This document shows, piece after piece, positions 1 to 14,600 of a stretch of DNA of 24,475 nt. The position numbers were made by a program, and so were the translations under genes. The stretch spans positions 1-24,475 of IMG/VR virus record IMGVR_UViG_3300025806_000219; one strand, written 5' to 3'. Numbering within the stretch: the stretch's first letter is position 1; every line of letters starts with the position of its first letter. The stretch is from a virus. The notes under the pieces were generated by a model. The model did not search any database. It was not told the DNA's origin and worked only from the letters and a program-made list of their open reading frames with translations.

Positions 1-151
1 TCTCGCAGTTGGCAAACACTACAGCGATGATGCCATATTCGTCCCAAACAGCCCAACGTTTCTCAAAATACGTTTTATTGCTTGGGTTAACGTAAAGTGC
101 TTTAACGTTACTGTATGTCCTATTATATCCAAAATCAATTACCATTTTCAT
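1..151 (-). CDS. Partial phage protein of unknown function (C-terminus outside window)
   Basis: Reading leftward from ATG at 151-149, an open frame of 50 codons runs off the left edge without a stop. It begins MKMVIDFGYNRTYSNVKALY and continues with an aromatic-rich stretch (KRWAVWDEYG, then AVVFANCE). The start overlaps the stop of the upstream minus-strand gene as ATGA (151-148), the usual sign of translational coupling, so both probably share the promoter at 584-611. The conserved-looking pattern (NVKALYVNPS, RWAVWDEYG) resembles small hypothetical proteins I associate with many podoviruses, but I know no function. It is too short and incomplete to assign a fold. The gene is real on grounds of overlap and composition; the function is unknown. 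Confidence 0.75.
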   Translation of the reverse strand, partial: MKMVIDFGYNRTYSNVKALYVNPSNKTYFEKRWAVWDEYGIIAVVFANCE

Positions 152-540
152 AGTGATACCCTTATGCTTGTTTTAAATGCTGCCATTAATAGTGCTGTTT
201 TTGAGTTACTATACTTTGTTTCGTTTGCGTATACAAAGGATTCGTATTTATACGGGTTGTACGTTATAGGTGCCATAGGCTCTGTCACGGGCGTATTGAA
301 CGGCATCCAATATCCCACTAGACCCGCGTGAACATTCTTTTTGCGCTCCCGTAGGACACGCTGGCGTCCCGCTTGCGATACCCTAGGGGATACGTCTTGT
401 AACACCACGCCGCGCTCGTGGGCTATTACACGGCCCTTGTGCGGCCCGTCTAGCGCCCGTACTGAAAACAGTTTACGATGCAAATTAAAATACACGTAGA
501 CACGTTGTCCGGTAGGTTTTCCGTTTCGTTTGTTTTTCAT
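148..540 (-). CDS. Conserved phage hypothetical protein, 130 aa
   Basis: The open frame extends upstream to 636, but the start is placed at ATG 540-538. That codon has AAAAGGG (556-550) nine bases upstream, and the extension would translate a (CA)8 repeat and the promoter. The 130-aa product begins MKNKRNGKPTGQRVYVYFNL and is strongly basic. Its N-terminal half has a pattern (YVYFNLHRKLFSVRALDG, later RQRVLRERKKNVHAG) that I recognise as a small family found in many tailed phages, with no established function. It is the first gene of a leftward operon and overlaps the next gene by ATGA. Position beside the putative origin suggests an early or accessory role, but that is inference. Confidence 0.85.
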   Translation of the reverse strand: MKNKRNGKPTGQRVYVYFNLHRKLFSVRALDGPHKGRVIAHERGVVLQDVSPRVSQAGRQRVLRERKKNVHAGLVGYWMPFNTPVTEPMAPITYNPYKYESFVYANETKYSNSKTALLMAAFKTSIRVSL

Positions 541-583: not shown

Positions 584-611
584 ATTATCCATAAGGCAGC
601 CACCGTGTCAA
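584..611 (-). promoter_or_regulatory. Leftward sigma70-type promoter
   Basis: Minus strand TTGACA (611-606, perfect -35), a 16-bp spacer, and GATAAT (589-584, five of six to consensus -10). Transcription would begin near 577 and give a leader of about 37 bases before the ATG at 540. It is the only near-consensus leftward promoter I find upstream of the minus-strand genes. Confidence 0.75.
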
Positions 612-835
612 CTGTATTTGTGTGAACTATTAACAATTAAATACCTGTATTTTATGCGGACAGTGTGCTTGTGATTGTGTACCGCCTACCTTTTATTATG
701 CGCGCATGTGCGAATAGCACACTATCCCCATGGTTGTCTATAGTAAATAATACCTTGCACTGATAGGTGTACCAGTGTAGCGCATAGGGGACCATAGGGG
801 CCCGCCTAGGCTCACACATTCCCTATGGTGTCAAT

Positions 836-847
836 GGTAATATTACC
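836..847. repeat. 12-bp perfect palindrome GGTAATATTACC
   Basis: Perfect dyad in the non-coding region, about 110 bp before the first DnaA box. It could be a dimeric-protein operator. No partner gene is identifiable in the window. Confidence 0.6.
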
Positions 848-956
848 TTGTAATGGATAGCCCCCTATGGCAACCCGTGACGCCATAGGGGCCATAGGGG
901 CCATAGCCTTGGACTATCGTGGGCTAGGAATAGTGTGGGAAAACCCTATGGTATCC

Positions 957-1084
957 TGTGGATAACTGCGGAATGGTAACCTGTGGATAACCATAGGGAT
1001 TGTGGATGAATCTGTGGATAACCTGTGGATAAGTCCGGGTTTTGTGGGTAACCTGTGGGTAACCTGTGGATAACCTGTGGATAA
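957..1084. repeat. Array of nine DnaA-box-like sites (candidate origin)
   Basis: TGTGGATAA, the reverse complement of the DnaA box TTATCCACA, occurs perfectly at 957-965, 982-990, 1013-1021, 1024-1032, 1065-1073 and 1076-1084. One-mismatch forms lie at 1001-1009 (TGTGGATGA), 1043-1051 and 1054-1062 (TGTGGGTAA). All nine have the same orientation. Start-to-start steps are 25, 19, 12, 11, 19, 11, 11 and 11 bp, so the later copies are 11-bp units (core plus CC) close to one helical turn. The 11-bp period is not a multiple of three, which argues against a coding origin. Known biology: such boxes bind the host initiator DnaA. Use as a phage origin is inference. Confidence 0.8.
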
Positions 1085-1144
1085 GGGGCCGGGGGGGCCA
1101 AGCCGCAGCGTTATTGTTACTGTAGCCCCTCTGGTTTACGAGAA

Positions 1145-1177
1145 GGTAAAAAGTCACTTTTTCTATATAATAAAAAA
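1145..1177. other. AT-rich stretch beside DnaA boxes (possible unwinding element)
   Basis: About 33 bases dominated by A and T runs (including TATATAATAAAAAA) begin some 60 bp after the last DnaA box. AT-rich DNA in this position acts as the unwinding element in DnaA-type origins. Here this is an inference from composition and position only. Confidence 0.4.
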
Positions 1178-1216
1178 CCCCTTTAGCCCTTTGATACCAA
1201 AGGTTACAGCAGTGTA

Positions 1217-1296: not shown

Positions 1297-1325
1297 TTGA
1301 CAGAACTTAAAAACTCTGTTATACT
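1297..1325 (+). promoter_or_regulatory. Rightward sigma70 promoter for the packaging/structural genes
   Basis: TTGACA (1297-1302), 17-bp spacer, TATACT (1320-1325): perfect -35, five of six at -10, and ideal spacing. Transcription would start near 1332 and give a leader of about 130 bases before the small terminase candidate. The leader is AT-rich, then carries tandem CCTTAGGT (1384-1391, 1393-1400), the palindrome TAGGTACCTA (1396-1405) and a small hairpin (1420-1439). Confidence 0.8.
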
Positions 1326-1461: not shown

Positions 1462-1839
1462 ATGGATGTTGTTAAAAAAACGGGCAGGCCTAAGAAAACT
1501 GAGGCGCAAAAGAAATTACCCGCTAAACCAAGAACTGATCGAAGCATCATGGAAGCGTACAGGCAGCGCCTGTTAAACAGCCCTTCTAGCGAAAAAGTTA
1601 TAAGTAAAGTGTTTCAAACTGCGTTAGATGATGACCACGCCCATCAAGCAGCGTGTATGAAAATGATAATGGACAGAGTTCTGCCTACCTCTGGTTTTTC
1701 AGAGGCTGTTTCAGGCGGCACTCAGAAAAGCGCAATACAGATAAACATATCTGGTGTTCCCGGTGTGGAGCTATCAGCCCCCAAGGAGCCCCTTGAAGGG
1801 GCCTTTAAAACTATAGACGAGGACTCCAAAGATGATTAA
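1462..1839 (+). CDS. Putative terminase small subunit, 125 aa
   Basis: The position directly before the large terminase operon, the length and the basic N-terminus (MDVVKKTGRPKKTEAQKK) fit a DNA-packaging recognition subunit. The middle part (residues about 28-85) is predicted helical, with AYRQRLLNSP and AACMKMIMDRVLP, a pattern seen in small-terminase-like proteins of marine podoviruses. The C-terminus is acidic. ATG 1462 is preferred over the in-frame GTG at 1453, because AGGGAG (1444-1449) is only three bases from the GTG but 12 from the ATG. The role would be to bind the phage DNA and load the large terminase. Assignment rests mainly on context, and another DNA-binding function remains possible. 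Confidence 0.6.
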   Translation: MDVVKKTGRPKKTEAQKKLPAKPRTDRSIMEAYRQRLLNSPSSEKVISKVFQTALDDDHAHQAACMKMIMDRVLPTSGFSEAVSGGTQKSAIQINISGVPGVELSAPKEPLEGAFKTIDEDSKDD

Positions 1840-1918: not shown

Positions 1919-2085
1919 TGAAAGGCGTAAAACACTACAAAAAAAATGGAACTTTACACACTGGTGGGACGCATAAGATGCCCAACGGTGAATTGCATTC
2001 TGGCAAAACACACGGCAAGACAAGCGTAAAGTTGTTTCATTTTAAAGACTTGTCAGAGACTGCTAAAAAGAACGCAAAAAAATAA
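1918..2085 (+). CDS. Small conserved phage protein, 55 aa
   Basis: A GTG start at 1918 overlaps the previous stop (TAGTG) and has AAAGGG (1906-1911) six bases upstream. The stop TAA (2083-2085) overlaps the ATG of the large terminase (TAATG). The product contains KMPNGELHSGKTHGKTS followed by LFHFKDLSETAKK, a combination I recognise from small hypothetical proteins that recur in environmental phage genomes. It is basic and rich in Gly, His and Lys, without a metal-binding pattern that I can identify. Function is unknown. Its fixed place between the terminase genes suggests a packaging or virion link. Translation of the terminase probably depends on this upstream reading, because the terminase has only a weak ribosome site of its own. 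Confidence 0.8.
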   Translation: MKGVKHYKKNGTLHTGGTHKMPNGELHSGKTHGKTSVKLFHFKDLSETAKKNAKK

Positions 2086-3335
2086 TGGAATTAGACATAA
2101 AGCTGTTGCCTTGGCAACAAGAAGTCTGGGAAGACCCTACACGCTTTAAGGTAATAGCGGCAGGCCGTAGGTGTGGTAAGTCTAGGTACGCAGCTTACAG
2201 GTTAATGGTAGAAGCCCTAAGCAGCACTAGGGGAGAGTTCTGGTACTGTGCCCCTACGCAAGCACAGGCCCGTGACATTATGTGGAAAAGCCTCTTAGAA
2301 ATTGGAGGTGATCTTGTAGAAAAAGCACACATAAACAACCTCCAAATAACCCTAGTCAACGGCTCTATGATTTCGTTAAAGGGGGGTGACAGGCCTGACA
2401 CCATGCGAGGTGTGTCCCTAAAGTTTCTTGTTATGGACGAAATAGCGCAAATTAAACCAGACGTATGGCAAGAGATTCTACGACCAGCGTTAGCTGACCT
2501 TAAAGGTGAAGCAGTGTTTATAGGTACACCTGAGGGTCGTAATCACTTTTATGACCTCTATAACTATGCAGACTCAGAAAAAGACCCTGATTGGGCAGCT
2601 TGGCATTTTACAAGTTTTGACAACCCAATCCTAGACCCCAAAGAAATAGAAGCAGCCAGACGCTCTATGAGTACCTATGCTTTTAACAAAGAATTTAAGG
2701 CATCCTTTAGTGCTCAAGGTTCTGAGATATTTAAAGAAACATGGATAAAGTTTGACGATGAAGCCCCTAGTGGCGGTGACTACTACATTGCCATAGATTT
2801 AGCAGGCTTTGAAACTTTAGGTAAAAAGAAAAAAAGCCGACTTGATGACACAGCTATAAGTATAGTAAACGTAGGTCAAGATGGTCATTGGTGGATTAAA
2901 GACATTATTAATGGGCGCTGGGACTTAAAAGAAACGGCAGAAGTTATCTTTAAAGCCGTTAAAAAGTACAGGCCCATAGCCGTAGGCATAGAAAGAGGGA
3001 TAGCTCAACAGGCCGTACTGAGCCCCCTAAGCGATCTTATGCGTAGAGAGAATAGGTACTTTAACGTACAGACCCTTACGCATGGTAACCAAAAGAAATC
3101 TGACCGAATTATCTGGGCTCTACAAGGTCGAATGGAACACGGTAGGGTATCTTTAGCAGAGGGCGATTGGAACGCTAAGTTTCTAGATCAGTTGTTTCAG
3201 TTCCCCTCGCATTTAGTAAAAGATGACCTAATAGATTCTCTTAGCTACATTGACCAGTTAGCCACTGTACCTTATTGGAATTTAGAAGAATTAGACGATG
3301 AATACGAATCCCTAGACATAACCTCAGGATATTAA
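2085..3335 (+). CDS. Terminase large subunit (packaging ATPase/nuclease), 416 aa
   Basis: The motor that pumps phage DNA into the procapsid and cuts the concatemer. The N-terminal ATPase domain shows Walker A GRRCGKS (residues 27-33), a CAPT segment (55-58), and Walker B FLVMDE (114-119) with the catalytic Glu. The C-terminal RNase-H-like nuclease has the first acidic residue in IAIDLAG (D238), a following DDTAISIV strand, and the acidic cluster KDDLIDSLSY (D380, D381, D384). The length is typical of compact large terminases. It starts inside the stop of the 55-aa gene (TAATG) with only a weak ribosome site, so it is probably coupled. The portal gene follows after three bases. All key residues are present. 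Confidence 0.97.
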   Translation: MELDIKLLPWQQEVWEDPTRFKVIAAGRRCGKSRYAAYRLMVEALSSTRGEFWYCAPTQAQARDIMWKSLLEIGGDLVEKAHINNLQITLVNGSMISLKGGDRPDTMRGVSLKFLVMDEIAQIKPDVWQEILRPALADLKGEAVFIGTPEGRNHFYDLYNYADSEKDPDWAAWHFTSFDNPILDPKEIEAARRSMSTYAFNKEFKASFSAQGSEIFKETWIKFDDEAPSGGDYYIAIDLAGFETLGKKKKSRLDDTAISIVNVGQDGHWWIKDIINGRWDLKETAEVIFKAVKKYRPIAVGIERGIAQQAVLSPLSDLMRRENRYFNVQTLTHGNQKKSDRIIWALQGRMEHGRVSLAEGDWNAKFLDQLFQFPSHLVKDDLIDSLSYIDQLATVPYWNLEELDDEYESLDITSGY

Positions 3336-11633: not shown

Positions 11634-14600
11634 ATGGCAACTAACCTGAATCAATTAGGAAACAGTTTTTTTAAAGATGTTGATGATTCTGGTTTTAATA
11701 CAGGCTCTGCTGGGGTAAATCCTGAACGTCCTGTTCAAAATACCCCTGTTTCTGTTACTCCTGAAGGTACTAGCTCTCCCTTAGCAGATTATGTTTCTAC
11801 GGGTTCTGTTTCACAACCTACAGAAACATATAGAGCAAACCCAGTTTATGGGGGCGGGACTTATGCCGTAGGAGAGGGGCCGTTACTTAGTGCCTCTCAG
11901 TCCCCTGAAATTGACAACAGCGAGGTGTGGTGGAGATACAGAAATCTTCCTATTTTTCAACAACCGGGATGGAAAGCACAGGGCCGCTCGTCAAATCAAA
12001 ATCGTTCGTATGTTAACACTATTACAGGGCAGACTTTAAGTGCTCAGGGCGCTTACGAAGAGTACGCTAAATCACCAAGGGGTATAGAAAATGCCGCCTA
12101 TAAAGCAAAAGAAAAAAAAGACAAAGAAGAATACACAGCATACCGAACCAGTACGCCCTATGGCGATTTTAGTAACTTTAATCAAAAGCAACTAAACGAG
12201 GCTTTGTCAGACCCTGAGTGGGGCTCAACAATAAGAGATATAATTAATGACCCTAGGGGTACCCCTAAAAGTTTAATGGCTTATCAAAATAGCGTGACGT
12301 ATCCGCAGCTAAATCAAGCAGCTACCCTTCCTTTAAAAGTACAACGATATGACAATAGGGGTGCCTTGTCTCCTTTGGCTAATTCTGGTTTAGACGCCCA
12401 AGGTGTAAGAGACTTAAACTCAGGGCTAAACAGCTTAACCCCAGAGCAATGGAATTATATTAGCGAATTACCTCCTGAGAATAACTTAGAAGGTATTTCT
12501 CCTGAGTTGTCCTCTTTTGCTGGGTCAGGTTTAAGTGCTCAAGACATAACTGACTTAAACACAGGATTAAACGACTTAACTTACAATGACACCACTGATT
12601 TTATTAGAGAATCTTCTGACATTTTTTGGTCTCCTGAAAGAGGAGGGGCCAGAGCTCAACAACTAGAAAAGTTATTATCAACTTCCCGCTTTCAACAGGC
12701 TTATACAGAGGGTTTACGGGCTGATCCAAATACAAACCCGCAAGAGTTTTTTAATAGTATTCACACTATGTTTTATTACTCTCCCGAAGAGTTTGCTCTG
12801 TGGAGAAACAACCCCGATAACATAGACATGGCTATACGCTTTCATGCTATGGCAGCAACAGGAGAGTTTGGCCCCGCTAATAAAAGCGGAGATGAAGAAT
12901 GGGATTCAAAAAAACACCAGCAGTTTGCGGATACTTTAGGTTTTAAACTTAGTCAAGATTTGGGCTGGGGAGAAGACGGTAAACAAGACGGCTCAATGAT
13001 AGCCACTAATTATGACGGCAAAATAAGCAAGGACGTAAACAACCCTAAGTCTGGGGGTGACTTTTGGAAAATAGGTACTCCTGAAAAAATTACAGATGGA
13101 GTTCGTAATTGGGTAGTAGATAACCCTGTCGAATCTGCAATTATTGTTGCAGCACTAGCTTTTGCTCCCCAAGTTATTGGAACATTAAGCGCTGCTGGGA
13201 CAACAGGCACAGGCCTTACTGGTGTGGTTCTTTCTGCTGGTGTTGCTCCTGCGTTTGCCCCTATGGCAGCAGCGGGTTTGTATGCAGCAGGGACTCAATT
13301 AGCTACGGGTCTAGCTTCTGGTGAAGACCTTGACGCTGATCTTCTTTTAAACGCTGTTAAAACAGGAGCTATTTCAGCATTAACTTTTGGTGCGGTACAG
13401 TGGGGTGCTGGTGAGCTTAGTTCTTTAACTAACGGTGCAATATCTGTTGAGGCAGGATATAGAATAACTGGAGTAGCTTTAGAAACGGCTAAAAACGGAG
13501 GGGACGTTGTATCAGCAGTAATTCAAGCAGGGCTAGCAGAAGGCGTTAATTTAGCTAGGGGAGCTGCTACAAACTTTGTAGGAGGATTAAGCCTAGCAAG
13601 TGCAGAAACAACTGATATGCCAGAGGGATTTGGGCCTGCTGCTGGTATGCCTACCATGACAGAAGAAATAGCTTCTGTAGGGGCAGGGCTTCCGACATCA
13701 ACTTTAGAAGACTTAGATATTTTTACAGACTATTCTCCTGATTCCCCTGTCTTGCCTAGTTCACCCGCTGTGTTTGATGACCCGAAACAACAGCTAATAG
13801 TAGATTTAGGAAACGGAACATCTGGTTACTCTACTCCCGATGGTTTTGTAGAGTTACCTCCTAGCAACACTACGCTAGACGATTTGGATATTTTTAGCGA
13901 CACTACAGATACCATTGATCTTCCCGCGCCAATAGAAACTAGAGATTACAGCGGATCAATAAACGCTGAAGACACTAGCAATATGTCTTACGATGAATTT
14001 GAGTCTTTTTCAGATAAGTTGGCTGACTCTGGTTTTCCTCTTACGGACACGGATGGAGAATACTTAGCCCCAGACGAAAACTATACGTTAAAGAATGGGG
14101 ATGAGTATTGGACTAGAACAACTGAAGTACAACCCGAAACCAGTTTTAATGAGACAGCAAACGAAAACTTTACTGGAGACCAAGGCACTCAGGGCCAAGG
14201 CACTCAAGGCCAAGGCACTCAGGGCCAAGGCACTCAGGGCCAAGGCACTCAGGGCCAAGGCACTCAGGGCCAAGGCACTCAGGGCCAAGGCACTCAGGGC
14301 CAAGGCACTGGAGGCCAAGGCACTGGAGGCCAAGGCACTGGAGGCCAAGGCACTGGGGGCGTATCTAACGCTGATTGGCAGCAAACTCTTGATGGAATAG
14401 AGGACGCAGGGCTTCCCACAGTAGACTCTACAGGCAATCCTTTGAAAAACGATGGAACAGTATACGACCTTAACAGTGACAACCAATGGGTTAAAATGGG
14501 GCCGACAGGGGGCCAAGGTTTAACTTATGCAGATGGCACCCCTATGGAACTGTCCCCAATTACAGTAGGTTCCGGTACTCCCACAGAAGCCAATAGTTTG

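Follow-up and report, generated by a model that had tools for sequence, protein, structure and literature searches.

DnaA-box array upstream of the terminase genes in an IMG/VR phage fragment, and its recurrence and replacement at the same junction in relatives

The window (the whole stretch of DNA analyzed, a 24,475-bp IMG/VR fragment) contained a 920-bp noncoding stretch between a leftward gene (148-540) and the rightward terminase genes, and the rightward genes of the window encoded terminase, portal, capsid, and tail proteins. The features recognized at this divergent junction and on its two sides were as follows:

148..540, minus strand: leftward gene, PHROG 586 (phrog_586), on the far side of the divergent junction
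584..611, minus strand: candidate leftward promoter of sigma-70 type, TTGACA-16-GATAAT (recognized by consensus match alone)
780..1000, no strand assigned: second short-repeat family CCATAGGGG / CCCTATGG, overlapping the left half of the array
957..1084, plus strand: DnaA-box array, TGTGGATAA being the TTATCCACA DnaA box read on the minus strand
957, 982, 1013, 1024, 1065, and 1076, plus strand: exact TGTGGATAA words (search with at most one mismatch)
1001, plus strand: one-mismatch word TGTGGATGA (same search)
1043 and 1054, plus strand: two copies of one-mismatch word TGTGGGTAA (same search)
1085..1098, plus strand: G-rich tract GGGGCCGGGGGGGC directly 3' of the array, with similar tracts at the equivalent place in most relatives
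1110..1180, plus strand: counterpart of the GTAGTACCC..AGATACAAAA element conserved in relatives, with a divergent sequence in the window; the AT-rich stretch begins here
1297..1325, plus strand: sigma-70-type promoter TTGACA-17-TATACT before the terminase operon (11/12 matches)
1462..1839, plus strand: gene between the array and terL, putative small terminase subunit (terS) as judged by position and basic N-terminus
2085..3335, plus strand: terminase large subunit gene (terL), many of whose best isolate matches were T5-like phages

The putative small terminase gene (1462..1839) had no PHROG match, and no relatives of it were found in cellular genomes; a search for tRNA genes for host assignment also found none. 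Inside the PHROG 586 gene, the segment 314-457 displayed about 70-74% DNA identity to a mycobacteriophage gene (e.g., that of Larenn), which was surprising for a marine phage. Far to the right, a nearly perfect 15-bp tandem repeat (14180-14354, 11.7 copies) encoded GQGTQ units within a 1279-aa protein that had a collagen-like stretch near its end.

The array was composed of nine plus-strand words (six exact and three one-mismatch) at 957-1084, and the count, coordinates, and common direction given by an earlier note on this DNA were all correct. The gaps between successive boxes were 16, 10, 3, 2, 10, 2, 2, and 2 bp (2-3 bp at five of the eight), and thus the array was phased in part only: the 11-bp period claimed by the earlier note held for the starts of the final four boxes (two of them one-mismatch words). 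All six exact boxes of the window fell within this one noncoding site. Dinucleotide shuffles yielded a mean of 0.013 exact words (maximum 2 in 5000 shuffles) for 541-1460 and a mean of 0.16 (maximum 2 in 200 shuffles) for the whole window, compared to the six observed, and the array thereby represented a cluster of multiple consensus boxes (TTATCCACA / TTWTNCACA) beyond chance. Among viral contigs, at least 120 harbored a close TGTGGATAA pair, with spacing peaks at 11-13, 20-23, and 32-34 bp and with 14-19 bp almost empty, while the reversed-word control gave 66 contigs whose spacings were mostly multiples of 3, as in coding repeats. Chance or base composition as the source of the array was ruled out by the shuffles together with the reversed-word control.

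The box excess, the 2-3-bp gaps, the flanks resembling those of oriC box R1, and the pair spacing among viral contigs made it likely that the array 957-1084 would serve as a binding platform for host DnaA. The family flank consensus was A(A/G)CC-TGTGGATAA-C, and the counterparts in Escherichia coli oriC, read in the same sense, were CCC-TGTGGATAA-CAAG at R1 and CTAC-TGTGGATAA-CTC at R4. The preferred spacing of paired boxes for E. coli DnaA is 2 or 3 bp, with binding greatly reduced by 1 additional bp (PMC11317965). The earlier note had taken TGTGGATAA as a DnaA site outright; the word itself, its flanks, the spacing typical of high-affinity boxes, and the recurrence in relatives are all consistent with this assignment, which stands as a probable one read from sequence. 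The DnaA consensus was assumed for the host, and so was its possession of sigma-54 or CtrA.

The relatives were gathered by terminase, resulting in 80 loci in which leftward gene(s) come first, followed by a noncoding region and then by terS and terL, and lineage counts were taken over 24 independent lineages. In the 30 kb of terS-upstream sequence, these lineages had 22 exact boxes, compared to none in the remaining 242 kb; at least two exact boxes were present in 6/24 lineages, a single box in one more, and none in 17/24. An unbiased count of repeated 9-mers gave TGTGGATAA as the most recurrent word (6/17 clusters), the next unrelated word reaching 2. The search for the same array at the same place in relatives, as proposed in the earlier note, therefore showed independent recurrence of the word upstream of terS. 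The array was kept in two near-identical relatives; between the window and relative L008, there were two differences across the 128-bp array (none within the six exact boxes), compared to 71 across the preceding 412 bp and 12 across the following 376 bp. Box orientation varied between lineages, and relative L065 had recently gained a 71-bp insertion that brought three boxes (two exact and one one-mismatch) and that was absent from five close relatives. Taken together, the constraint on the array, the exclusive placement, the recurrence, the change of orientation, and the gain in L065 indicate that the DnaA boxes are under selection yet exchangeable. Three components were constant in most lineages, namely a G-rich tract, a TACAAAA element / GTAGTACCC.CC.AGATACAAAA-like element, and, ahead of terS, a sigma-70 promoter (TTGAC..TATAAT promoters were present in most relatives); the window region 1085-1180 (G-rich tract, GTAGTACCC..AGATACAAAA, and AT-rich sequence, conserved in most relatives) is a candidate for the genome end, a packaging site, or the true origin.

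The comparison was also applied to sites of other host regulators at the same place. TGGCA(C/T)N5TTGC is the -24/-12 consensus of sigma-54 promoters, and the 24 lineages had 35 such sites in the terS-upstream regions versus three elsewhere; the canonical 5-bp gap gave 35 sites, versus at most one when the gap was 2-4 or 6-9 bp, and the sites kept their -24/-12 elements while the spacer varied. Over 59 loci, TGGCAYN5TTGC occurred 91 times in the terS-upstream regions versus five times in 474 kb elsewhere. Arrays of five to eight sigma-54-like sites were found in L047, L051, L043/L044, L053/L054/L064, and L019/L021/L022, mostly facing the leftward genes, for which they could simply be promoters. 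DnaA boxes and sigma-54 arrays occurred together in two lineages, and neither was present in about half of the 24 lineages. TTAA-N7-TTAA is the CtrA consensus, and one lineage only (L014:4961-5041) had seven overlapping TTAA-N7-TTAA sites with an 11-bp period where the window had DnaA boxes; the same locus encoded a DNA methyltransferase (PHROG 757). CtrA sites as a family-wide feature were ruled out, the 7-bp gap occurring nine times outside L014 versus eight times for a 6-bp gap. The repeat words in the terS-upstream zone differed among relatives. L033 had two copies of CACTGTATATCTATCCAGTA, which closely resembles the gammaproteobacterial LexA box, at about -1568 and -1537 from terL, and further unexplained repeat words TGTCAACACTTGACA, TTGAACTTCGAGTAT, CCTACGTGGCGTA, and GCCTGTGGTGTG were found in the terS-upstream zone of L025, L050, L016, and L020.

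Arrays of exact boxes were also present in isolated phages of unrelated groups, and in the SP6-like, T7-like, and T5-like ones nearly all of the boxes fell within the two terminal repeats. The counts were as follows: (i) six at 19-198, six at 45566-45745, and one elsewhere in the 45839-bp genome of SP6-like ZK1; (ii) four at each end and none elsewhere in T7-like A7; (iii) five per end plus one elsewhere in phiEap-1; (iv) five within each terminal repeat plus one outside the repeats in T5-like Spc35; and (v) all five within 150 bp of the ends in Vibrio phage BD1. The terminal repeat of T7 had no exact DnaA box, and SIO1 had neither an exact DnaA box nor a sigma-54 site. The terminal repeat of Berlinvirus P483 had its array in the segment that in T7 carries the CCTAAAG repeats. 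An array of this kind had been called unexpected in podoviruses of the T7 kind, which was wrong, because SP6-like and T7-like isolates carried arrays inside their terminal repeats. The same tandem DnaA-box sequence was additionally found in KT264804, MH572269, PQ006258, and PQ006418 (4.4-5.6-kb records of Gokushovirus, Microviridae, and 'bajarodmic virus'), and box arrays thus extended beyond tailed phages. From these comparisons, the window array probably lies at or beside a genome end. Contig starts gathered 0.5-3 kb before terL, but they shared no sequence and marked no single position, and the mapping of a genome end from contig starts was dropped because the hypervariable zone alone could explain the clustering.

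The explanation tentatively favored here is that the array belongs to an exchangeable docking strip for host proteins at the packaging end, which would act as a block and/or a sponge and not as an indispensable origin. The array stands in a fast-changing noncoding zone that separates the leftward replication genes from the rightward packaging/structural genes and that most likely lies at an end of the linear genome or next to it. This zone would accommodate host proteins that bind tightly, namely DnaA in some lineages (which would bind closely spaced boxes cooperatively), sigma-54 RNA polymerase in others, and CtrA in one. The resulting host-protein complex on phage DNA may, at the incoming or processed end, block DNA entry, exonuclease, or junction-crossing transcription, and/or it may act as a sponge by withdrawing the regulator from the host. 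The docking strip was preferred because an essential origin would ill fit the absence of boxes, the sigma-54 swaps, and the arrays in T7-like phages bearing their own RNA polymerase. The docking strip may not be universal, since at most one exact box was present in 18/24 lineages and about half had neither array type. A wider generalization, in which unrelated phage families keep a strip, swapped between close relatives and matched to the host, for a host master DNA-binding protein (DnaA, sigma-54, or CtrA) at or beside the packaging end and thereby control genome entry or regulator withdrawal, is conceivable and at present rather doubtful.

Titration of DnaA alone, which the earlier note had also raised, is unlikely to account for the array. 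In such a case, replicating phage genomes would titrate host DnaA, halt new rounds of host replication, and alter the DnaA regulon (nucleotide synthesis/repair genes). The E. coli locus datA, composed of two consensus and four one-mismatch boxes, titrates DnaA (PMC5835720), and the array exceeded it in box number; the sigma-54 and CtrA arrays of relatives would then be sponges for other regulators. However, the location of a sponge is free in principle, yet the sites were restricted to a single junction and, among the isolates, to the terminal repeats.

A DnaA-dependent origin, the other use proposed in the earlier note, is likewise improbable. Host DnaA on the array would melt the AT-rich stretch to the right and let the phage T7-type primase-helicase load, and this DnaA start would replace the promoter-primed start for which T7 uses its own RNA polymerase. 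The layout (boxes, GC-rich tract, and AT-rich stretch) agreed with such a function, and the longest relative carried a SIO1-type module of DNA polymerase, T7-type primase-helicase, gp2.5-like SSB, endonuclease I, Cas4-type exonuclease, ThyX, and class II ribonucleotide reductase. No phage RNA polymerase homologue was detected by tblastn (with a working positive control) in the available sequence of the relatives, and this left room for a DnaA-assisted start because the longest relative showed no such gene in its sequenced part. GC skew changed sign at the junction in relatives, but this flip was seen with and without boxes and followed gene direction. Conservation among phages sharing the replication module, as would be expected of an oriC-type site, failed with only 6/24 lineages having at least two exact boxes, and, by the earlier note's own terms for refutation, the relatives spoke against the origin reading, most of those with the same gene order being boxless (17/24 lineages, plus one with a single box). 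Moreover, boxes appeared and disappeared among near relatives, flipped orientation, and were swapped for sigma-54 or CtrA-type arrays, and T7-like isolates with their own RNA polymerase carried arrays too. An essential DnaA-driven origin was thus poorly supported, being weakened by the boxless relatives and the box turnover and perhaps by the box-independent skew flip, and it was disfavored because an essential initiator site should not be missing from the majority of relatives with the same module or be sigma-54-swapped.

Still less probable is a genome-entry signal of the kind proposed for T5, in which a bound host protein would pause or anchor the incoming DNA. The injection-stop region of T5 has been described as carrying repeats, palindromes, and DnaA boxes (PMC13250531), the window terL resembled T5-like terL, and boxes were found in T5-like, SP6-like, and T7-like terminal repeats, but the role of DnaA in the T5 stop is itself a proposal. 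An incidental DnaA word within terminal short repeats that act in concatemer processing or in packaging is very improbable: T7 has CCTAAAG repeats at the place occupied by DnaA words in P483 and phiEap-1, and the words differ among relatives, but the exact 9-mer with DnaA-type spacing and flanks recurred in unrelated phages and the sigma-54 sites retained their -24/-12 elements despite the varying spacer. Neither the origin nor pure packaging repeats are as likely as the docking strip.

DnaA-box clusters and DnaA titration were already known, and the DnaA boxes of the T5 repeat have been discussed in print. Among openly accessible papers, none was found on such arrays in podovirus terminal repeats or on the interchange of DnaA, sigma-54, and CtrA arrays at a single phage locus. 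Should the arrays indeed be bound by DnaA, sigma-54, or CtrA, a short noncoding strip would reveal which host regulator is engaged, which would help with phages that have been seen in metagenomes alone, and the DnaA boxes of the T5 injection stop would widen into a pattern testable in ordinary T7-like and SP6-like laboratory phages.

The window and its relatives were finally compared with four known systems. Roseophage SIO1 and the marine podovirus module shared gene order with the relatives of the window (ThyX, primase-helicase, DNA polymerase, Cas4-type exonuclease, endonuclease I, and class II RNR), while the structural genes of the window were not SIO1-like. The double DnaA boxes, datA, and oriC of E. 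coli shared with the window array the exact box, the flanks, and the 2-3-bp spacing; the window array differed from datA/oriC in having nine same-direction boxes, with no IHF site or 13-mer repeats identified. The terminal repeats of T7-like Berlinvirus/phiEap-1 and of SP6-like Klebsiella and Proteus phages carried noncoding, same-strand, multi-box CCTGTGGATAAC arrays like that of the window, but these phages have a phage RNA polymerase (encoded or by classification), another gene order, and enterobacterial hosts. T5 is a 110-kb siphovirus with 8-10-kb repeats, whereas the window phage is represented by a fragment; the T5 injection-stop region (first-step-transfer DNA, terminal repeat) and the window array nevertheless shared a noncoding, repeat-rich character and paired DnaA boxes (near one end in T5 and probably so in the window phage), and the two phages had a related terL.
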